Positions 9,777 to 63,073 of a DNA stretch of 64,000 nucleotides are shown piece by piece; within the stretch, counting starts at the first letter, position 1, and each line of letters begins with the position of its first letter. The position numbers were made by a program, and so were the translations under genes. The DNA comes from Pseudohongiella acticola. Its GTDB lineage: Bacteria; Pseudomonadota; Gammaproteobacteria; Pseudomonadales; Pseudohongiellaceae. The stretch is taken from NCBI RefSeq assembly GCF_001758195.1, contig NZ_MASR01000001.1, forward strand, positions 682,001 to 746,000, in the 5' to 3' direction. Below the pieces are notes generated by a model. The model did no database searches. It was not told the origin of the DNA and saw nothing but the letters and a program-made list of their open reading frames with translations.

Positions 9777-10475
9777 ATGTCCGTCAGCTCAGATGCGCGC
9801 CGCAGCAGCCCCAGCTCGGCGCGTAACCGGGAGCCCATTGCCCAGGTATTGCAGCGGCATCTGCCTGCCCGCAGTCAGGTACTGGAAATTGCGTCTGGCA
9901 CAGGCGAACACGCGGTGTATCTGAGCCAACAGCTGAGCTCGGCGCACTGGTGGCCAAGCGACATCAATACCGACGCCATCAGCAGCATCAATGCCTGGCG
10001 TGACAACGCTGACGCCGACGCCGTGCAACCCGCTCTGGTCCTCGATGTCAGTCGCCCGCCCGCTGAGACCCTGCGAGACCTGCACAATGCGGGCGCCAAC
10101 CCGCCAGTATTTGATGCCATCATCTGCATCAACATGATTCACATCAGCCCCTGGCAAGCAACGCAGGGGCTGATGCAGACTGCCAGGGCATTGCTACGTG
10201 AAGGCGGCATACTGTACCTGTACGGGCCATACAGACGCCATGGCGAACACACTGCCGACAGCAACGCCCTGTTTGATGCTGATCTGCGCTCACGAGATCC
10301 GCGATGGGGTATCCGCGCGCTCGAAGAGGTCTGTGAGCTGGCAGCCACACAGGACCTGATAGTGGCAGAGATCGTCGACATGCCAGCCAATAATCTGAGT
10401 GTTGTTCTGCAAAAACACACTTCGTCAGATACACAAACCCGTCACCTTGCCAGCACCACCCGCAGCGATGACTGA
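9777..10475 (+). CDS. DUF938 family SAM-dependent methyltransferase
   Basis: A 232-residue protein starting at ATG 9777; a GTG two codons earlier (9771) is an alternative and neither has a strong ribosome site. After a Ser-rich start it has ARNREPIAQVL, the typical DUF938 opening, then VLEIASGTGEHAVYLSQ, the glycine-rich SAM-binding motif I. Further on are AIICINMIHISPW and LREGGILYLYGPYRRHGEHTADSN. The family has a class I methyltransferase fold; its substrate is unknown. It follows the MAPEG gene closely and its end overlaps the NRAMP-like gene by 8 bp, so the three probably form an operon. Confidence 0.85.
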   Translation: MSVSSDARRSSPSSARNREPIAQVLQRHLPARSQVLEIASGTGEHAVYLSQQLSSAHWWPSDINTDAISSINAWRDNADADAVQPALVLDVSRPPAETLRDLHNAGANPPVFDAIICINMIHISPWQATQGLMQTARALLREGGILYLYGPYRRHGEHTADSNALFDADLRSRDPRWGIRALEEVCELAATQDLIVAEIVDMPANNLSVVLQKHTSSDTQTRHLASTTRSDD

Positions 10476-11700
10476 CGCTACCGGCAAGCGCCGCTGGTAC
10501 ACACAAAATGGACCGGGCGCATTGGTCGCGGCTGCCTTCATCGGACCCGGCACAGTGACCGTGTGTACCCTGGCCGGTGTCAACTTTGGCTACGATCTAT
10601 TGTGGGTGATGCTGCTGTCGGTGTTTGCCACCATGGTGTTGCAGGAAATGTCCGCTCGCATTGGCATCGTCACCGGACGCGGCCTCACCGACGTTATCCG
10701 CACGCAGTTAAAAAATCTGTCGCTGACCCGGTATATCGTCTTACTGGTGATCCTGAGCGCAATTGTCATCGGCAATGCGGCCTACGAGGCAGGCAATATC
10801 AGCGGCGGACGCCTGGGCCTGGAAACACTGCTTGGTATCACCTCAGCGGCCGGATCTCGCTGGCTCAGTCTTGTCATCGGGACCCTTGCCTTTGCCTTAC
10901 TGTTTATCGGCAGCTACAGATTGTTGGAGCGTGCCCTGATCGGCATGGTTATAATGATGAGTCTGGCGTTTGTGATGGCAGCAGTTTTGACCAGACCCGA
11001 TCTGACGGCATTACTGCAGGGACTTTTGCGTCCTTCCCTCAATGACGCCAGCATATTGACCATTCTGGGTTTGATCGGCACCACCGTGGTTCCCTACAAC
11101 CTGTTTCTACATGCATCCCTGGTCAGTGAAAAGTGGCGCAGTGCGGATGACCTGCCGCATGCACGGCGCGATACATTTATTGCCATCGCCATCGGTGGAC
11201 TGGTCTCCATGGCAATCATCATCTGCGCTGCTGCGGTCAATGCTGCCGACATATCCAATGCGGCCGACCTGGCACGGGGACTGGAACCGTTATTTGGCAG
11301 TTTCGCCAGATATTTCCTCAGCCTGGGCCTGTTTGCTGCGGGCATCACATCGGCCATCACGGCGCCGCTGGCAGCCGCCTACGTTGTACGCGGATGTATG
11401 GGGTGGCCCAAAGATCTGAAACACACCGGGTTTCGTCTGGTATGGATGTTTATTCTCGGCATCGGCATTACCTTCTCATCGCTGGGTATCAACCCGATCG
11501 ACATTATTCGGTTTGCGCAGGTCGCCAATGGCCTGGCACTGCCTCTGGTGGTTGCCATCCTGCTATGGATCATGAACCAGACCGCGGTACTGGGTGAGCA
11601 CAAAAACACAAGGCTGAACAATGTCCTGGGTAGTCTCATACTGCTGGTGACGGTTGCGCTGGGTACACGCACCATCATTCAGGTTATGGCCAGCCTGTAA
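10468..11700 (+). CDS. NRAMP-like divalent metal transporter, divergent metal site
   Basis: The start at 10468 overlaps the preceding stop (ATGACTGA), a sign of translational coupling; a longer frame to 10399 is possible. The 410-residue protein has about eleven hydrophobic segments and the NRAMP/SLC11 fold. Segment 1 reads AFIGPGTVTVCTLAG where canonical MntH proteins have DPGN, so the metal-binding Asp and Asn are Gly and Thr. Segment 6 reads TVVPYNLFLHASLV where the family has MPHN. The family imports Mn2+, Fe2+ or related ions with protons, but both ligand motifs differ here. Substrate could be another metal or a non-metal solute. Confidence 0.82.
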   Translation: MTDATGKRRWYTQNGPGALVAAAFIGPGTVTVCTLAGVNFGYDLLWVMLLSVFATMVLQEMSARIGIVTGRGLTDVIRTQLKNLSLTRYIVLLVILSAIVIGNAAYEAGNISGGRLGLETLLGITSAAGSRWLSLVIGTLAFALLFIGSYRLLERALIGMVIMMSLAFVMAAVLTRPDLTALLQGLLRPSLNDASILTILGLIGTTVVPYNLFLHASLVSEKWRSADDLPHARRDTFIAIAIGGLVSMAIIICAAAVNAADISNAADLARGLEPLFGSFARYFLSLGLFAAGITSAITAPLAAAYVVRGCMGWPKDLKHTGFRLVWMFILGIGITFSSLGINPIDIIRFAQVANGLALPLVVAILLWIMNQTAVLGEHKNTRLNNVLGSLILLVTVALGTRTIIQVMASL

Positions 11701-11736
11701 CAAAAGCCAGCACCCGGCCTGATCCCGGGCATTGTT

Positions 11737-14319
11737 CTAACGCGCAGCCCGCTGCAAACCGTCAGCTGCCTGCAGAAGTTTTGCGCGCAGCTTGGGCTGC
11801 ATATCTCTGCGCTCCTCCAGAAACTGCTCAACGATTGTCCAGGCTGCCACGGAGCTGTGGCCATCAAGCGTGGCGTTAAGCCAGCGCAGCGGAAAGAATA
11901 TGTCGCCGGTCTGTTGAATTTCTTCCAGCAATGTAAGCGCCGGTCGAATCAGGGCAACGGCACTGCCTGCCCGCAACGGATGGTGGATCAACCGTGTAGC
12001 ATCCAACACCCAGGACTCCTGACGGCGATTCTCCAGATTCGCAAATGACAGAAACCGTGCATTGCGCTGGTCCGCATCCTGACTCAGGGCTGGACGTACA
12101 AAACGGAATCGATTCAGGCGATCAGGGTTGCTGATACGTGCCTGTTGCCTGTCCAGTATTTCCTCAGCGCCAGCCACGCCTCTCAGCGCCAGCGCTTCCG
12201 CCAGGTTGATATACTGCTGCTCCTGCAGGGGCAGTCCGTCAACGTCCCGCGTCATTCGCCAGATCGCCTCAAGCTCTGCCAGTCCCGATGCTGTGCCGGT
12301 GATATCAACCAGGGTGTTAAAATAAGCGCCTTTTTGCCCTGCGCTGCTGGCGCGGGCAAGTGCCTGCCACAATGTCTGTTCCAGTTCTGCGACGTGATCA
12401 GCTCTGTCTTCCGCAGGCAGGTACCGCCACCACACGCCACGCAGCAGCCCCAGTACCTGCTGGGTAAGCAATGGCTCCTGCTCGACACGCACCGCGGTCA
12501 GCAAGGTTTGATAGAAGGCCATCGGCGACAGCGTGTTCTCCAGAACATCCTCCCACAAGTGCTGCCATACAACCGCTCGTTGTAAAGCCGACTCCAGTTC
12601 ATGGACATGCCCCAGCAGAAATTGTCGGCTGCTGTTATCCAGCTCAAAGCGGGCATAGCCCACACCATCGGCGCCGGCAAGGACAAAGTCCGGCGGGCCA
12701 TTCCCTTCCACATCCTTCAGATTCAGTGTCGCTGTGCGATCACGAAGCTGTACAGTGTATTCTTTTACCTGCCCTTCCCAACCTAGGGCCAACGCTACCG
12801 GCTGTTGCCACAGTAAACTCCGATCACTCTCATCATCACGCTGAGTCACCGTGATGGCATCGTTACGCCAGCGCGCCTGTATCCTTGGCCGGCCCGGCTC
12901 ATTAACCCAGACCTGACTCCAGGTCGTCAGGTCCTCGTTGCTCATGGAATCCAGCACACTGATCAGATCGGGCCAGCCGGCATTGGCAAACGCATATTGC
13001 GCCAGGTACTGACGCAGTCCATTACGCAGGGTGTCTTCGCCCAGCAATGTTTCCAGCTGTTGCATGACCACCGGCGCTTTCTGATAAATGATGGCGCCGT
13101 ACAGCGAACCGGCGTCACGCAGATTGTCGAGCTGCTGACGAACAGGATTGGCGCCGTCGGTTCTGTCGACAGCGTAGGCTGCCGGATGATGGGCCTGAAA
13201 AAAACGTAAATCCAGATCCAGTTCGGGAAACGCAGGCCCGGCTATTTTTGCTGCCATAAAGTTGGCAAATACTTCTTTCATCCAGACATCATTAAACCAG
13301 CGCATGGTCACCAGATCACCAAACCACATGTGCGCGGTTTCGTGTGCAATCAGACTGGCACGGCTCAGCTCCTGCGTCCGCGACGCACTCGGATCAAGGA
13401 ACAGTGTTTCCGCCCGATACCAGATGGCACCGGGGTGTTCCATGCCGCCGAACTGGAAGGCCGGTACGGCAAAGAAATCAAACTTGCCAAACGGATAATC
13501 AATGTCGGTGTATTCCTCCAGCCAGCGAATGGCCGTGGCATGCAGATCAAAGATGGCATCGCGATTACGCGCCAGGCGCTCGGGGTCGGTCTCGCGATGA
13601 TAGAGGGTCAGCGTTCTGCCGTCGCGAACAGCCGTTTCCGTTTGCAGATCACCCGCAGCAAAAGCAAACAGGTAAGAACTGATGGGTAATGTTTCAGCGA
13701 ATTGCAGACGATCCATCGTTGCTCGATCAGGGTCGGCGTGACGTGATACTTCAGCGCCATTGGACAGCGCCTGCCAATGCTCGGGAATACTTAATTGCAA
13801 TCGATAGCGCGCCTTTATGTCCGGCTGCTCAAAAACCGGAAACGCTGTTGAAGCGCGATCCGGTACAAACAACGCATACATAAAGTCATCGCGACGATTG
13901 AGGGCTGTATCTGCGCTTTTGAACTCAACACCCAGGGTATGCGACCCGGGAACAAGGGCTGTTGCGGGAATCACGACATGATCATTAACAACATCGTGCG
14001 TCACCGGCGCGCCATTCAACGTTACCGCCAGGACATGGTCGGCCGGCACACGAAAATCCAGGACCAGTGGCTGCGAGTCATCACTGAGCTCAAAGGTGGC
14101 AGCCAGGGTACCGGTAACCGCTTCGGTGTTATCAGCGGGAATATGGAAAAAGAGGTCATAAACCACATCACTGATAGCTGTCACACGTTGTTCAGCCAGT
14201 GTCCGGGCAACACCGGGAGCGGGCGGAGAGTCGGTAGTAGTAGTAACACTGGACCCGACGCAGGACATCAAAAACAGCACTGACATCAAGTTCAACAGTT
14301 TTTTGCCGGCACTGATCAT
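11737..14319 (-). CDS. M1 family aminopeptidase, lipoprotein
   Basis: An 860-residue protein with GGAG upstream of ATG 14319. A lipoprotein signal ends with SC (Cys20). An N-terminal beta-saddle domain runs to about 240. The catalytic domain has GGMEH at 291-295, in the position of the family's GxMEN motif with His for Asn, and HETAHMWFGD with zinc ligands His326 and His330 plus Glu349 in WMKEVFANF. The spacing HExxH-18-E is exact for M1. A helical C-terminal domain follows. It should remove N-terminal residues from peptides at the cell envelope, matching the other exported peptidases nearby. It is convergent with the NRAMP gene and carries an unusual heptamer repeat just upstream of its start. 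Confidence 0.9.
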   Translation of the reverse strand: MISAGKKLLNLMSVLFLMSCVGSSVTTTTDSPPAPGVARTLAEQRVTAISDVVYDLFFHIPADNTEAVTGTLAATFELSDDSQPLVLDFRVPADHVLAVTLNGAPVTHDVVNDHVVIPATALVPGSHTLGVEFKSADTALNRRDDFMYALFVPDRASTAFPVFEQPDIKARYRLQLSIPEHWQALSNGAEVSRHADPDRATMDRLQFAETLPISSYLFAFAAGDLQTETAVRDGRTLTLYHRETDPERLARNRDAIFDLHATAIRWLEEYTDIDYPFGKFDFFAVPAFQFGGMEHPGAIWYRAETLFLDPSASRTQELSRASLIAHETAHMWFGDLVTMRWFNDVWMKEVFANFMAAKIAGPAFPELDLDLRFFQAHHPAAYAVDRTDGANPVRQQLDNLRDAGSLYGAIIYQKAPVVMQQLETLLGEDTLRNGLRQYLAQYAFANAGWPDLISVLDSMSNEDLTTWSQVWVNEPGRPRIQARWRNDAITVTQRDDESDRSLLWQQPVALALGWEGQVKEYTVQLRDRTATLNLKDVEGNGPPDFVLAGADGVGYARFELDNSSRQFLLGHVHELESALQRAVVWQHLWEDVLENTLSPMAFYQTLLTAVRVEQEPLLTQQVLGLLRGVWWRYLPAEDRADHVAELEQTLWQALARASSAGQKGAYFNTLVDITGTASGLAELEAIWRMTRDVDGLPLQEQQYINLAEALALRGVAGAEEILDRQQARISNPDRLNRFRFVRPALSQDADQRNARFLSFANLENRRQESWVLDATRLIHHPLRAGSAVALIRPALTLLEEIQQTGDIFFPLRWLNATLDGHSSVAAWTIVEQFLEERRDMQPKLRAKLLQAADGLQRAAR

Positions 14320-58167: not shown

Positions 58168-58508
58168 TACACCGCCTCCATTGCCGATATAAAAACCCGA
58201 CCGTCTCTCACGCTCACCGGGTAAGCCTGGATATTCTTTTCCTCATCCTCAAGACAGGTTCCGGTCTGTAAACAGAAGTGTTGTTTGTACACGGGTGAGG
58301 CCACCACTGATCGTCCCGCGATATCGCCTGTCAAACCGCGACTCAATACGTTTGCATCGCTGAACGGGTCACGGTTGTCCAGTGCGAACACACCTTCTCC
58401 GGTCCTGAACACAGCTATCTGCTTACCCTCTATCCGCACTGCCGCCCCTGTTCCCGGGATCAGGTCATCCAGTGCGCCCACCTCTACCCATTGACTTGTG
58501 TCATTCAT
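58167..58508 (-). CDS. nirD: Nitrite reductase small subunit NirD
   Basis: A 113-residue protein with the Rieske-like NirD fold. It lacks the CxH...CxxH cluster ligands of true Rieske proteins: the positions read SRGLTGD and PVYKQHFCLQTGTCL. This is normal for NirD, which supports the NirB subunit without holding a cluster. VAVFALDNRDPFSDANV-type blocks appear as GVFALDNRDPFSDANVLSRG. Start and stop each overlap a neighbour by one base (TAATG), so it is strictly coupled to nirB and the FAD reductase. Confidence 0.93.
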   Translation of the reverse strand: MNDTSQWVEVGALDDLIPGTGAAVRIEGKQIAVFRTGEGVFALDNRDPFSDANVLSRGLTGDIAGRSVVASPVYKQHFCLQTGTCLEDEEKNIQAYPVSVRDGRVFISAMEAV

Positions 58509-61033
58509 TACGCAGTCTCCAGAACATCATCGCTTGTTTTTTCATCGGCACGTGCCGGTCGTTTCTGCCCTCGTTCGCGTACATAGATAATCTGCTCATC
58601 CGGCTGATCATCATTGAGGAAAGGTCGGAAGCGTTTCAAAGCAACGGGGTCTTCGATGGTGCGCTTCCACTCACAGACATAGGTATCGATGACCGACTGC
58701 ATCTGGGTTTCAAGTTCGTCAGCGATACCCAGTGAATCATTGATAATGACGTCCTGCAGGTAACCCAGGCCACCTTCCATGTTATCGCGCCATACCGACG
58801 TACGCTGCAGACGATCGGCGGTCTGGATGTAAAACATCAGAAAGCGATCAATGGTTTGAATCAGGGTCTTGTCATCAAGGTCGCTGGCAAACAGTTCGGC
58901 ATGACGTGGACGCATACCGCCATTGCCACAGACATAAAGATTCCAGCCCTGCTCTGTGGCAATAACACCCACATCCTTGCTTTGCGCTTCAGCACATTCC
59001 CGCGTACAGCCTGACACCGCCATTTTTAATTTGTGTGGCGAGCGCAGGCCGCGGTATCGCTCCTCGATATATATCGCCATGCTGACCGAGTCCTGTACGC
59101 CATACCGGCACCAGCTTGAACCCACGCAGGATTTGACGGTCCGCAGGGATTTGCCATATGCGTGACCGGATTCAAAACCTGCGTCCACCAGATCACGCCA
59201 GATTGATGGAAGCTGGTCTACACGCGCACCAAACAGGTCGATACGCTGGCCGCCGGTAATCTTGGTATAAAGATCGTATTTTTCGGCCACCTGGGCCAGC
59301 ACAAGCAGTTTAGCCGGGGTGATCTCACCGCCGGGCACACGAGGAACGACTGAATAGCTGCCGTCTTTCTGCAAATTGGCAAGAAAGTTGTCATTGGTAT
59401 CCTGCAGTCCGACATGACGCGGATCCAGTACATAATCATTCCAGCATGACGCCAGAATGGAGCCGATCGCCGGTTTACATATGTCGCAACCCTGACCACG
59501 GCCGTGCTGTGCCAGCAACTCATCAAACGAGCGGATGCCGTTTACCCGAACCAGGTGATACAGCCCCTGGCGGGTGTAGGCAAAGTGTTCACACAGGTCA
59601 TTATTGATTTCTATACCCTGGCTCTTGAGTTCTGCATCCAGCACCTGCTTAACCAACGTCGTGCAACCACCGCAGGTTGACGACGCCCGGGTTTCCTTCT
59701 TCAGCGCACCAATAGTGGTACAGCCGGCACTTATGGCGCTGCAAATGTCACCCTTACTGACATTGTTACAGGAACATATCTGCGCCGTTGCCGGCAATGC
59801 ATCAACGCCCAGCATCGGTTTTTCACCTGCTGACGGGGCAATAAGGCTGATCGGGGAATCAGGTAGATCGAGTGCATTCAGGCTGTACTGCAGCAGTGCG
59901 TCATAGTCACTGGTGTCACCCACAAGGACTGCGCCCAGCAGGCGTTTGCCGTCTTCGCTTATTACCAGCTTTTTGTATACACCTGCGCTGGCATCTTCTA
60001 TCGAACACACGCGGTATTCAGGTGCCCCACCCTGTGCCAGACCAATTGAGCCCACTTCAACCCCCAGCAGTTTCAGTTTGGTGCTCATATCGGCGCCGCT
60101 GAACATGGCGCTGTCATCGCCGCACAGCAGTGATGCGAGTTTGCGTGCCATATCGTAGCCCGGTGCCACCAGACCAAATATTCGTTGCTGCCACAGCGCC
60201 ACTTCGCCTATTGCAAAAATATCGGGATCTGATGTACGGCACTGGTCATCGATGACAACACCACCGCGTTCGCCGATACTCAGACCGCAATCACGTGCCA
60301 GCTGATCACGTGGCCGGATGCCGGCTGAGAACAGCACCAGATCAGTCTCTAGCGCGTCCTCAGCAAAAACCAGACGGTGTCGGTGCTGTTCACCATCTTC
60401 AATACGCTGTGTCGCCTTTCCGGTATGCACCGAAACCCCAAGTGCAGTGATCTTGCTGCGTAACATCTCGCCACCGCTGGCATCAAGCTGGACCGCCATC
60501 AGGCGTGGCGCAAATTCGACGACATGGGTTTCCAGACCCAGATCCTTTAAGGCTTTGGCGGCCTCCAGACCCAGCAGCCCACCGCCAATCACGACACCAC
60601 GACGGCTGGTAGCGGCCGACGCATTGATCGCCTCCAGATCGTCTATTGTGCGGTAGACATGACAGGCATCGCGATCGCTGCCGGCAATCGGTGGCACAAA
60701 AGGATAGGAGCCGGTCGCCAGTACCAGCACATCATAGGGATAGTCGTTGCCTTTGCTGCCAGTGACCTGACGGGCGTCACGATCAATGCAGACGACGGCC
60801 TCATCGCACAGAAACCTGATCCCATGCTCTTCAAAGAAGGGAAGGGTTCCCAATGCCAGGTCTTCTGCGGTGGCACCACTGAACCAGGCGCTTAGCTGCA
60901 CGCGGTCGTAAGCCGGACGACTCTCTTCGCAGAATACCGTCACCTCAAACTCATGTTGCAGCGCGACCAGCTCTTCAAGGAATCGCTGACCTACCATGCC
61001 ATTGCCAATCACCAACAACTGACGCTTCTTCAT
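58508..61033 (-). CDS. nirB: NAD(P)H nitrite reductase large subunit NirB
   Basis: An 841-residue cytoplasmic enzyme that reduces nitrite to ammonium with six electrons. LLVIGNGMVGQRFLEELVAL binds FAD and GVVIGGGLLGLEAAKALKDLG binds NAD(P)H. Cys420, Cys422, Cys454 and Cys457 form the [2Fe-2S] BFD-like domain. Cys636, Cys642, Cys676 and Cys680 (CVGSSWC and GCTREC) bind the coupled [4Fe-4S]-siroheme. AAGGAGAAGG precedes ATG 61033. It is the first gene of the leftward operon, and its 5' leader carries two hexaloop hairpins and a terminator that should make expression depend on an ANTAR antiterminator. Confidence 0.95.
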   Translation of the reverse strand: MKKRQLLVIGNGMVGQRFLEELVALQHEFEVTVFCEESRPAYDRVQLSAWFSGATAEDLALGTLPFFEEHGIRFLCDEAVVCIDRDARQVTGSKGNDYPYDVLVLATGSYPFVPPIAGSDRDACHVYRTIDDLEAINASAATSRRGVVIGGGLLGLEAAKALKDLGLETHVVEFAPRLMAVQLDASGGEMLRSKITALGVSVHTGKATQRIEDGEQHRHRLVFAEDALETDLVLFSAGIRPRDQLARDCGLSIGERGGVVIDDQCRTSDPDIFAIGEVALWQQRIFGLVAPGYDMARKLASLLCGDDSAMFSGADMSTKLKLLGVEVGSIGLAQGGAPEYRVCSIEDASAGVYKKLVISEDGKRLLGAVLVGDTSDYDALLQYSLNALDLPDSPISLIAPSAGEKPMLGVDALPATAQICSCNNVSKGDICSAISAGCTTIGALKKETRASSTCGGCTTLVKQVLDAELKSQGIEINNDLCEHFAYTRQGLYHLVRVNGIRSFDELLAQHGRGQGCDICKPAIGSILASCWNDYVLDPRHVGLQDTNDNFLANLQKDGSYSVVPRVPGGEITPAKLLVLAQVAEKYDLYTKITGGQRIDLFGARVDQLPSIWRDLVDAGFESGHAYGKSLRTVKSCVGSSWCRYGVQDSVSMAIYIEERYRGLRSPHKLKMAVSGCTRECAEAQSKDVGVIATEQGWNLYVCGNGGMRPRHAELFASDLDDKTLIQTIDRFLMFYIQTADRLQRTSVWRDNMEGGLGYLQDVIINDSLGIADELETQMQSVIDTYVCEWKRTIEDPVALKRFRPFLNDDQPDEQIIYVRERGQKRPARADEKTSDDVLETA

Positions 61034-61059
61034 GCACCTTCTCCTTCATTCTCCGAGGC

Positions 61060-61104
61060 AAAAAAAAAGCGCCCATCACACGACTATTGTCGTGTCATGA
61101 GCGC
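61060..61104 (-). terminator. Leader terminator of nirB
   Basis: On the minus strand, arms 61104-61089 and 61084-61069 form a 15-pair stem with one mismatch and an AATA loop, then nine U (61068-61060). It lies between the predicted promoter and nirB, 27 bp before the start codon, so it would stop transcription unless overridden. Its 5' arm overlaps hairpin P2 at 61099-61112, making the two structures mutually exclusive. Confidence 0.88.
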
Positions 61105-61160
61105 CATTGCCCTGAAATCTTTATGTCACTGCAAATGATCTCGAAATCGCCTTTGATTCC
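61099..61160 (-). promoter_or_regulatory. ANTAR-type two-hairpin leader element of nirB
   Basis: P1 (61160-61143, minus strand) is GGAATC-AAAGGC-GATTTC. P2 (61112-61099) is GGGC-AATGGC-GCTC. Both have six-base loops with A at position 1 and G at position 4, the defining feature of RNA targets of ANTAR antiterminators such as NasR and NasT. P2 shares bases with the terminator's 5' arm, so a protein holding P2 would allow read-through into nirB. No ANTAR gene lies in the window. Confidence 0.75.
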
Positions 61161-61190
61161 AGTCAGGCAGGTGACCTGTGTCATAGGTTG

Positions 61191-61206
61191 AGCAAAAGCT
61201 ATGCCA
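61191..61206 (-). promoter_or_regulatory. Sigma-54 promoter for nirB
   Basis: On the minus strand, TGGCATAGCTTTTGCT matches the TGGCAC-N5-TTGCW sigma-54 consensus with one change and exact spacing. Transcription would begin near 61180, about 20 bases before hairpin P1. Nitrogen control by NtrC would fit the operon's role. Confidence 0.7.
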
Positions 61207-61337
61207 GCCGCCCAAAATTATTTTAATTATTACTTAGGAACCCGTGTTCTCTGGCCTACAGCGCAATCAAGCATAGTCTGGCGGCTGCCTGTCGATGATG
61301 ACCTCGGTCCATTGTTGTGCATCGTTTTTGCGCGCCC

Positions 61338-61354
61338 TGCACTGAAATAAGGCA
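61338..61354. promoter_or_regulatory. Possible NtrC enhancer site
   Basis: TGCACTGAAATAAGGCA keeps the outer half-sites of the NtrC palindrome (TGCAC at one end, GCA at the other) with the right 17-bp length. It sits midway between the two divergent sigma-54 promoters. The inner bases of the right half differ, so the call is tentative. Confidence 0.3.
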
Positions 61355-61466
61355 AACCCCGGTGCCTGACCGCCCCTTGGCATTGGCGGCGCATTACTGA
61401 CTCATCCCCCCATTTTCCCTGGCTTATAAAGACGCTCCTGACCGTATTCCACCAGCAGGCAGGCTT

Positions 61467-61482
61467 TGGCACAGTAAATGCA
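61467..61482 (+). promoter_or_regulatory. Sigma-54 promoter for nrtA
   Basis: TGGCACAGTAAATGCA matches TGGCAC-N5-TTGCW with one change and exact spacing. Transcription would start near 61494, about 16 bases before hairpin P1 of the nrtA leader. It mirrors the divergent nirB promoter. Confidence 0.7.
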
Positions 61483-61509
61483 TTATCGGGGTAGACCGAC
61501 TGTGACAGC

Positions 61510-61554
61510 GCCCAAAGATGGGTTACCTGTCACGTTTTAAGGGCAATGGCGTCC
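61510..61554 (+). promoter_or_regulatory. ANTAR-type two-hairpin leader element of nrtA
   Basis: P1 (61510-61523) is GCCC-AAAGAT-GGGT. P2 (61541-61554) is GGGC-AATGGC-GTCC. Both six-base loops have A1 and G4. The P2 loop and its 5' arm are identical to those of the nirB leader, and the P1 loops share AAAG. P2 overlaps the 5' arm of the following terminator, so ANTAR protein binding would permit transcription into nrtA. Confidence 0.75.
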
Positions 61555-61604
61555 GCACGTGATCTGCAGAGTTTTCTGCTATCGCGGGTGGGCGCTTTTT
61601 TTTT
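61549..61604 (+). terminator. Leader terminator of nrtA
   Basis: A long stem (61549-61563 with 61581-61595, one mismatch and three G-U pairs) is topped by GCAGA/TCTGC closing on GTTT, followed by nine T (61596-61604). It lies 92 bp before the nrtA start. The end GGGCGC plus nine T is the same as in the nirB leader terminator. Confidence 0.85.
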
Positions 61605-61696
61605 GGTTGACTATTGGATTGTTTAGCGAACTTTTGTTGAGCTTTCTCTTTGGTTTTCTAACAGATCTATTTTGAACACAGCAAGGGAGTTTCATC

Positions 61697-63073
61697 ATGC
61701 GTAGCATACAAAGGACGATTCAGCGTTCTGCCACTGCACTTTTCCTTACCAGCAACCTTTGGGCCATATCAGCCGGCGTTGCTGCCGATGTCGGTTGGCC
61801 GGAAAAAGAAGACCTGACGCTGGGGTTCATCAAACTCACCGACATGGCGCCGCTGGCAATTGCCTATGAAAAACGGTTTTTCGAAGACGAAGGTCTGTAT
61901 GTAACTCTGGAGCCGCAGGCGAACTGGCGGGTACTGCTGGACGGCGTTATCGACGGCCGGCTCGACGGCGCTCACATGCTCGCCGGCCAGCCGTTGGCGG
62001 CCACCATTGGTTACGGCACCAGCGCTCACATCGTCACGCCACTGAGCCTTGACCTGAATGGCAACGCCATCACTGTCTCCAATGACGTCTGGGAGATGAT
62101 GCGTCCGCACATACCACAGCAGGACGGCCGCGTGCTAAGACCCGTCAGCGCCCAGGCCCTGAAGCCTGTTATCGAGAGCTATCATGCCCAGGGCAACCCA
62201 TTCAACATGGGCATGGTGTTCCCGGTATCGACGCACAATTACGAACTGCGCTACTGGCTGGCAGCAGGTGGTATTCATCCTGGCTACTACGCGCCACAAC
62301 GGGGTGATACATCGGGCACGCTGGAAGCGGATGTCATGATTTCTGTGACACCGCCTCCACAAATGCCAGCCACCATGGACGCTGGCACAATCAAGGGATA
62401 CAGCGTCGGCGAGCCATGGAATCAACAGGCGATCTATCGCGACATCGGTGTGCCTGTCATCACTGACTATGAAATCTGGCAGAATAACCCGGAGAAAGTA
62501 CTGGGCATGACCCAGGCCTTCATCGAGGAAAACCCCAATACGTCGATTCGGTTGGTCAAGGCGTTGTTACGGGCCGGCAAATGGCTGGACGAAAACAACA
62601 ATGCCAACCGCGAAGAGGCAGCAAGAATTCTGTCACGTAGTCACTATGTAGGGGCAGATTACGACGTTATCGCCAATTCCATGACCGGTACCTTCGAATA
62701 TGAAAAAGGTGAAGTGCTGCCAGTCCCCGACTTCAACGTGTTCTTCCGCAATCATGCCACGTTTCCCTACTATTCCGATGCCGTCTGGTTTCTGACACAG
62801 ATGCGTCGCTGGGGTCAGATTGCCGAACCCAAAAACGACGACTGGTATCACCAGACAGCCGCCAGCGTCTACCGGCCTGATATTTATCAGCTGGCGGCCG
62901 AAGAGCTGATTGCCGAAGGTAAAATGACGGCAGCGGACTTCCCGGACTTCGCCAGTGAAGATGGTTATCGTCCCGTACAGACCGAGTTCCTTGACGGCAT
63001 CCCGTATGACGGTCGCCAGCCCAATGCTTACCTGCAATCACTGACAATTGGATTGAAGGACAAGAACCCTTGA
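61697..63073 (+). CDS. nrtA: Nitrate ABC transporter substrate-binding protein
   Basis: A 458-residue exported protein; AAGGGAG lies about eight bases before ATG 61697. A signal peptide ends near SAGVAA. The mature protein starts [41 protein letters not shown], the family's opening in which Leu-Thr-Asp and the following residues form the anion site. [17 protein letters not shown] and [13 protein letters not shown] are further NrtA/NasF/CmpA blocks. The presence of a signal peptide and of a following permease favours a transporter component over the related cytoplasmic sensor NasS. Nitrate (or nitrite) is the likely ligand, given the divergent nirBD-nasA operon. Confidence 0.92.

Follow-up and report, generated by a model that had tools for sequence, protein, structure and literature searches.

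The window analysed here, a 64,000-nucleotide stretch of the Pseudohongiella acticola genome, contains an intergenic region (61034-61696) that parts the leftward nirB gene from the rightward nrtA gene, with a candidate leader RNA ahead of each (Table 1). Downstream of nirB follow, in order, nirD, an FAD oxidoreductase gene, nasA, a SUMT-type methyltransferase gene, a porin-like gene and a mobA-like gene; the names in this left operon were assigned from Pfam domains and gene order, except that the mobA-like designation is our own presumption from the translation. On the right, nrtA precedes two genes that we take, from their translations, to be nrtB and nrtC, and the end of the latter overlaps that of nasR by 7 bases. 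Further beyond the window and adjoining nasR (positions 9788-12462 of the locus sequence, L002), inspection of the translations by eye reveals two genes, one resembling a 2Fe-2S subunit and the other a molybdopterin dehydrogenase, preceded by a TetR-like gene.

Table 1. Genes and predicted regulatory elements of the nirB-nrtA region, in window positions unless a contig is given
Feature	Position	Strand	Remarks
nirB, large nitrite reductase subunit	58508-61033	-	First gene behind the left leader; from Pfam domains and gene order
nirB-leader intrinsic terminator	61060-61104	-	Stem 61069-61104, nine T 61060-61068; 5' arm overlaps P2
nirB-leader P2 antiterminator hairpin, GGGC[AATGGC]GCTC	61099-61112	-	Hexaloop 61108-61103; predicted
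nirB-leader extended P1 hairpin	61125-61175	-	Inner stem 61143-61160; hexaloop AAAGGC 61154-61149
sigma54-type -24/-12 box, nirB leader (TGGCATAGCTTTTGCT)	61191-61206	-	TGGCA and TTGCT columns kept in 9/9 genus loci
NtrC-like site TGCACTGAAATAAGGCA	61338-61354	.	Between both promoters; core columns invariant in 9/9 loci
sigma54-type -24/-12 box, nrtA leader (TGGCACAGTAAATGCA)	61467-61482	+	TGGCACA and TGCA columns invariant in 9/9 genus loci
nrtA-leader P1 hairpin	61502-61533	+	Outer helix GTGACAG/CTGTCAC plus inner stem; hexaloop AAAGAT 61514-61519
nrtA-leader P2 antiterminator hairpin, GGGC[AATGGC]GTCC	61541-61554	+	Hexaloop 61545-61550; predicted
nrtA-leader intrinsic terminator	61548-61604	+	Stem 61548-61595, nine T 61596-61604; 5' arm overlaps P2
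nrtA, nitrate-binding protein	61697-63073	+	First gene behind the right leader; nrtB and nrtC next
nasR	G000:C1:746933-748246	-	Convergent with nrtC, ~0.9 kb past the window end

Anatomy of the two leaders and their predicted promoters

A preliminary description of this region had proposed that each leader carries two short hairpins, P1 and P2, with six-base loops having A at position 1 and G at position 4. The sequence bears out these loops in both leaders and all four hairpins could be identified, including the nirB-leader P1, for which no position had been given and which we now place. Direct reading likewise confirms that the P2 5' arm and loop (GGGC-AATGGC) are the same in the two window leaders and that GGGCGC followed by nine T closes both terminators, and the proposed overlap of P2 with the terminator in each leader is upheld by sequence, folds and alignments. 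The nirB-leader P1 reads GGAATC[AAAGGC]GATTTC, is conserved, and is also where a model built from other genera (see below) aligns its own P1, while the inner hairpin of the nrtA-leader P1 reads GCCC[AAAGAT]GGGT. An alternative left P1 closer to P2 (loop AGTGAC), noticed by eye, was dropped, as it has a weak stem and L034 carries G in place of the first A of the loop. Furthermore, a C-G pair closes each hexaloop in both window leaders, matching the SELEX criterion for NasR given in the accessible text of PMC7496416.

Both leader folds are more stable than all 200 of their dinucleotide shuffles (z -4.03 for nirB and -3.70 for nrtA). The lowest-energy folds draw the nirB P2 in a shifted form when the terminator is omitted and add an A1-U6 pair to the nrtA P1, leaving a 4-base loop; since such folds miss some of the hexaloops, we read these from sequence and conservation rather than from energy. 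The linker between P1 and P2, measured by eye, spans 12 nt in the nirB leader and 7 nt in the nrtA leader when the whole extended P1 stem is included, and 30 and 17 nt, respectively, when measured from the inner stems; the nirB leaders of L027, L029 and L035 have longer linkers of ~19-20 nt, also by eye.

Sigma54-type boxes (TGGCA, then TGC) lie upstream of both leaders in 9/9 Pseudohongiella loci, including L030 and L031, whose nrtA box reads TGGCACACTTCCTGCA and was overlooked by the regular expression. The NtrC-like site stands ~150-165 bp from both predicted transcription starts, and its reverse strand agrees, by eye, with 9/11 fixed positions of the NtrC consensus as quoted in the accessible part of PMC5424462; a second, inverted look-alike was noticed by eye at ~61318-61334. 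Both RpoN (241 bits) and NtrC (745.9 bits against a cut-off of 558.6) are encoded in the genome. This sigma54/NtrC layer is an addition to the earlier reading of the locus and is already known for nas/nal systems.

Conservation within Pseudohongiella and covariance searches

The named relatives that share the locus are Pseudohongiella, P. nitratireducens SCS-49 (L059) among them, and the divergent regions of nine loci from the genus, providing 18 leaders, were aligned. In line with the expectation that A1 and G4 be retained in close relatives, the hexaloops are kept in 9/9 of these loci and compensatory changes occur in the stem pairs. A1, A2 and G4 together with the C-G closing pair are present in 36/36 loops, a count that is partly a matter of ascertainment, as A1/G4 guided the search for loops and, in L033, the nirB P1, whose inner stem is mismatched, was placed by its loop word. 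Nevertheless, structure-blind alignments place the loops in the same columns, and variation is seen at loop position 3 and in the stems, around the invariant bases.

The proposed pairing was compared with 500 shuffles. For the nrtA leader, P1 and P2 have 84.4% of alignment cells paired (0/500 shuffles as high) and five pairs with two-sided changes, a number matched by 42/500; with the terminator included, 79.6% of cells are paired (0/500) and 16 pairs show two-sided changes (0/500). The nirB leader is more highly paired, at 93.3% for P1 and P2 (0/500 as high) and 91.1% with the terminator (0/500), but P1 and P2 alone offer three two-sided pairs (matched by 209/500) and five further pair types (479/500), and addition of the terminator raises these to seven (5/500) and ten (202/500), respectively. 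Sliding the pairing partners lowers the cells paired in the four counts from 79.6-93.3% to 26.5-53.4%.

In 6/9 loci the P2 loop is AAAGGC in one leader and AATGGC in the other, so the P2 loops of a locus need not be identical, as they are in this window. The loop-to-loop distance of the nirB leader (36-46 nt) exceeds that of the nrtA leader (30-33 nt) in 9/9 loci. On the protein side, NrtA of L027, L028, L029 and L035 is 33-36% identical to that of L002, with corresponding values of 29-34% for NrtB and 67-70% for NrtC. In L027, L029 and L035, the three of these loci with the full intergenic region, the nrtA leader is still alignable despite the divergent NrtA and NrtB, and it seems to have outlived a transporter swap in these three loci.

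A covariance-model search with the ANTAR RNA family, proposed in the preliminary description, gave a divided answer. Rfam 15 returned no matches at gathering thresholds over the whole window and, within 60900-61700, no ANTAR-like match at E<=10, and we therefore built our own models, of which the one derived from other genera finds both leaders in the window. A simple terminator scan also overlooked both leader terminators, presumably because of stem mismatches. A scan for the combined P1, P2 and terminator pattern yielded 106 matches across 1.87 Mb from 101 loci, a set that counts duplicates as well as NasT loci, versus 7 in block-shuffled copies, and recovered 16/18 genus leaders, overlooking those of nirB in L032 and L033. 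Restricting the scan to AANG loops and P1 stems of 4 bp or more left 51 leaders at NasR loci outside the genus; a sigma54-type box lies upstream of 49 of these (exceptions L068 and L108) compared with 12/1020 random positions.

Model R2 was built from 41 of these 51 leaders after removal of ten that were near-duplicates or had a doubtful P1, and its own pairing of 98.5% is partly built in by that selection. Applied to the 64-kb window at E<=10, it identifies only two sites: a match of 30.2 bits (E 7.9e-6) falls on the nirB leader and one of 15.9 bits (E 0.024) on the nrtA leader. Across the whole genome the top match is again the nirB leader (E 4.5e-4), the nrtA leader is not among the matches listed (150 of 1456 candidates scored), and a site at C1:1952843 that lacks a T-run scores 20.3 bits. 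Genomic matches near C1:1952290 and C1:1952850 were rejected as further leaders, being antisense to reading frames and devoid of a T-run. Model R1, built from the 18 aligned genus leaders and hence circular for those, the window's two included, makes two strong matches in the source genome (59.3 and 52.0 bits, the next at 16.5) and, at E<=0.01, detects leaders in 39/73 NasR loci of other genera (the 7 genus loci among the 80 were left out). Together, these data support the assignment of both leaders as putative ANTAR dual-hexaloop antiterminator RNAs.

At the stricter threshold of E<=0.001, R1 finds exactly two leaders in 10/15 genus genomes and none in the other five. The same ten genomes encode an ANTAR protein (NasR) and NirB (E<=1e-100; one NirB is cut by a contig end), and the remaining five have neither at these thresholds; in the tenth genome, G005, both leaders lie on a contig separate from nasR. 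Leaders, NasR and NirB are thus a linked module, although the absence of NirB from the leaderless genomes means that co-occurrence does not distinguish a link to NasR from one to the entire pathway.

NasR as candidate partner and the competing readings

A partner of the NasR or NasT type had been anticipated, together with a genome search for it, and that search identified NasR and not NasT. The genome (3.6 Mb, 8 contigs) has one ANTAR match and one NIT match, both in the same open frame, whose 437-residue product combines NIT (PF08376, E 4.2e-54) with a C-terminal ANTAR domain (PF03861, E 1e-18) and is homologous over residues 25-435 to Klebsiella NasR (4akk_A, E 9.8e-50). With its NIT domain and this length, the sole ANTAR protein detected corresponds to the one-component NasR form rather than to a short NasT acting with NasS. 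The NIT motifs RERGASN and GQERAAG each contain one arginine that is conserved in 85/85 NasR sequences (two duplicates included), and conserved arginines in motifs of this type presumably contact nitrate. His406 of the ANTAR protein aligns with a Klebsiella tryptophan that we take to be W362, a residue needed there for RNA binding; across the same 85 loci, two duplicates again included, this position is H in 55, Y in 29 and W in one. A pattern search of the 313 bp ahead of nasR revealed no sigma54-like box. Given that NasR is the only ANTAR protein found and that 10/15 genus genomes pair an ANTAR protein with exactly two leaders, it is natural to conclude that one NasR most likely acts on both.

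We consider it very probable, on the strength of these sequence comparisons, that the locus carries two divergent ANTAR antitermination leaders that would respond to a single NasR nitrate sensor, start under NtrC/sigma54 control and be read through jointly. Weighing against this reading are the folds that miss hexaloops, the energy cost of forcing P2 (see below), the weak R2 match of the nrtA leader, the shuffle counts for the nirB P1 and P2, the partial ascertainment of the loops, the co-occurrence that extends to NirB, and the nirB linker, which is as short as 12 nt only with the extended P1 included, EutV antitermination having failed with long linkers. That the elements are a chance resemblance within a divergent intergenic region is barely credible: short hexaloop hairpins are common, and weak pattern and model matches do occur elsewhere in the genome, but the excess of real over shuffled scan matches, the covariation, the matches to the other-genera model and the conservation of both leaders in ten genus genomes all contradict it, and the two genomic pattern matches that were inspected proved to be antisense and without a T-run. 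It is also highly improbable that the leaders are constitutive attenuators that merely damp transcription, their hexaloop hairpins being kept for RNA stability with no protein partner. The marked stability of the terminator folds relative to shuffles would suit such a role, and NasR binding is something we infer; however, A1, A2 and G4 never change, in contrast to loop position 3 and the stems, as expected of a loop that is read by a protein, and the leaders co-occur with NasR.

A subtler reading holds that the leaders are real and not co-regulated, one being a working NasR target and the other a relic or governed otherwise. Their differences in P1 stem, linker and loop spacing, and the weak score that the other-genera model gives to the nrtA leader, point in that direction. 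Against this, both leaders are present in all nine aligned loci with invariant loop bases, and the ten genus genomes with the ANTAR protein all carry two leaders and never one, which makes separate control improbable and favours joint regulation of the pair by NasR.

A proposed antitermination model and related systems

Judging from the promoter anatomy, nitrogen shortage would bring NtrC to the common central site and activate the two divergent sigma54 promoters. The predicted structures suggest that each leader RNA would by default fold into its terminator and be halted at ~110-120 nt, ahead of nirB or nrtA. By analogy with the NasR and EutV precedents, nitrate-loaded NasR could then bind the paired A1/G4 hexaloops, so that P2 forms and takes the 5' arm of the terminator, and the uptake (nrtABC) and reduction (nirBD-nasA) operons would be read through jointly. 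Forcing P2 in whole-leader folds costs 12.7 kcal/mol for nirB and 9.7 kcal/mol for nrtA, which implies that P2 must form during transcription with help from the protein; the EutV switch has likewise been proposed to act during transcription (PMC8934654, in the part accessible).

The spacing of the hairpins allows a further reading of the pair as a built-in sequencer, in which uptake would be switched on at lower NasR-nitrate levels than reduction, so that transport comes first. The idea derives from the longer nirB loop-to-loop distance in 9/9 loci and from linker length as a limit on EutV antitermination: according to the available text of PMC3369931 and PMC8934654, EutV acts with short linkers and fails with long ones, and P1-P2 linkers in eut leaders measure 5-12 nt (PMC3369931). 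If it were true, a single small pool of NasR would have to supply both nascent RNAs started from the one enhancer. We regard it as unlikely; the asymmetry is not general, as the same-strand pairs of L118 (29/27) and L078 (28/26) have slightly longer spacing before nrtA, and loop spacing in other-genera NasR leaders runs from 20 to 53 nt, the upper value being that of L081 with its doubtful P1.

The proposed circuit closely resembles several known systems, as described in the accessible portions of the cited papers. Klebsiella oxytoca NasR and its nasF leader share with it a NIT-ANTAR one-component protein, dual A1/G4 hexaloops and the P2-terminator overlap, as well as the combination of Ntr control with nitrate antitermination (PMC3369931, PMC3369936, PMC7496416, PMC5424462), but a single leader there precedes nasFEDCBA, whereas in Pseudohongiella two divergent leaders split uptake from reduction. 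The Pseudomonas NalA leader of nirBD, as reviewed in PMC12830290, similarly combines a sigma54 promoter, NtrC and an ANTAR-controlled leader, with the difference that its regulator is NasT with NasS rather than NasR. In Enterococcus faecalis, one ANTAR protein, EutV, serves several dual-hairpin leaders (PMC3369931, PMC7496416), in response to ethanolamine and through a two-component system, and the portions consulted describe no divergent leader pair; the same papers predict multi-leader ANTAR regulons in other bacteria.

Two or more leaders are indeed found at other NasR loci too. L054 has a divergent leader pair between two nrtABC sets, L118 and L078 carry leaders before nrtA and nirB on the same strand, and weaker second leaders are seen in L110 (E 0.37) and L066 (pattern scan only). 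At the Alcanivorax nas locus L055, model matches at 14253 (-), 17901 (-) and 18219 (+) each have a sigma54-like box upstream, as judged by eye; since the 17901 match lacks an obvious T-run, we do not regard it as a full leader. The back-to-back pair is accordingly a small new twist on a well-known switch, and a search of titles and abstracts in the open-licence literature, with longer lists covered in part, returned as a weak negative no report of a divergent NasR leader pair.

The family also offers a different arrangement. Five of 20 genomes from other genera of the same family (G018, G021, G025, G029 and G034) have an ANTAR protein of NasT length (open frames of 200-215 aa), whose gene adjoins an NrtA-like (NasS-like) gene with nrtABC in line and, in 4/5, nirB behind. 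This suggests a regulator swap within the family, with NasR and the divergent layout in Pseudohongiella versus NasT in line elsewhere. The compact natural pair, with one enhancer and one sensor, would allow linker length, loop sequence and induction order to be compared within one cell, and the boxes upstream of 49/51 selected leaders at NasR loci in other genera suggest that NasR systems commonly combine nitrogen shortage with nitrate sensing in an AND gate.
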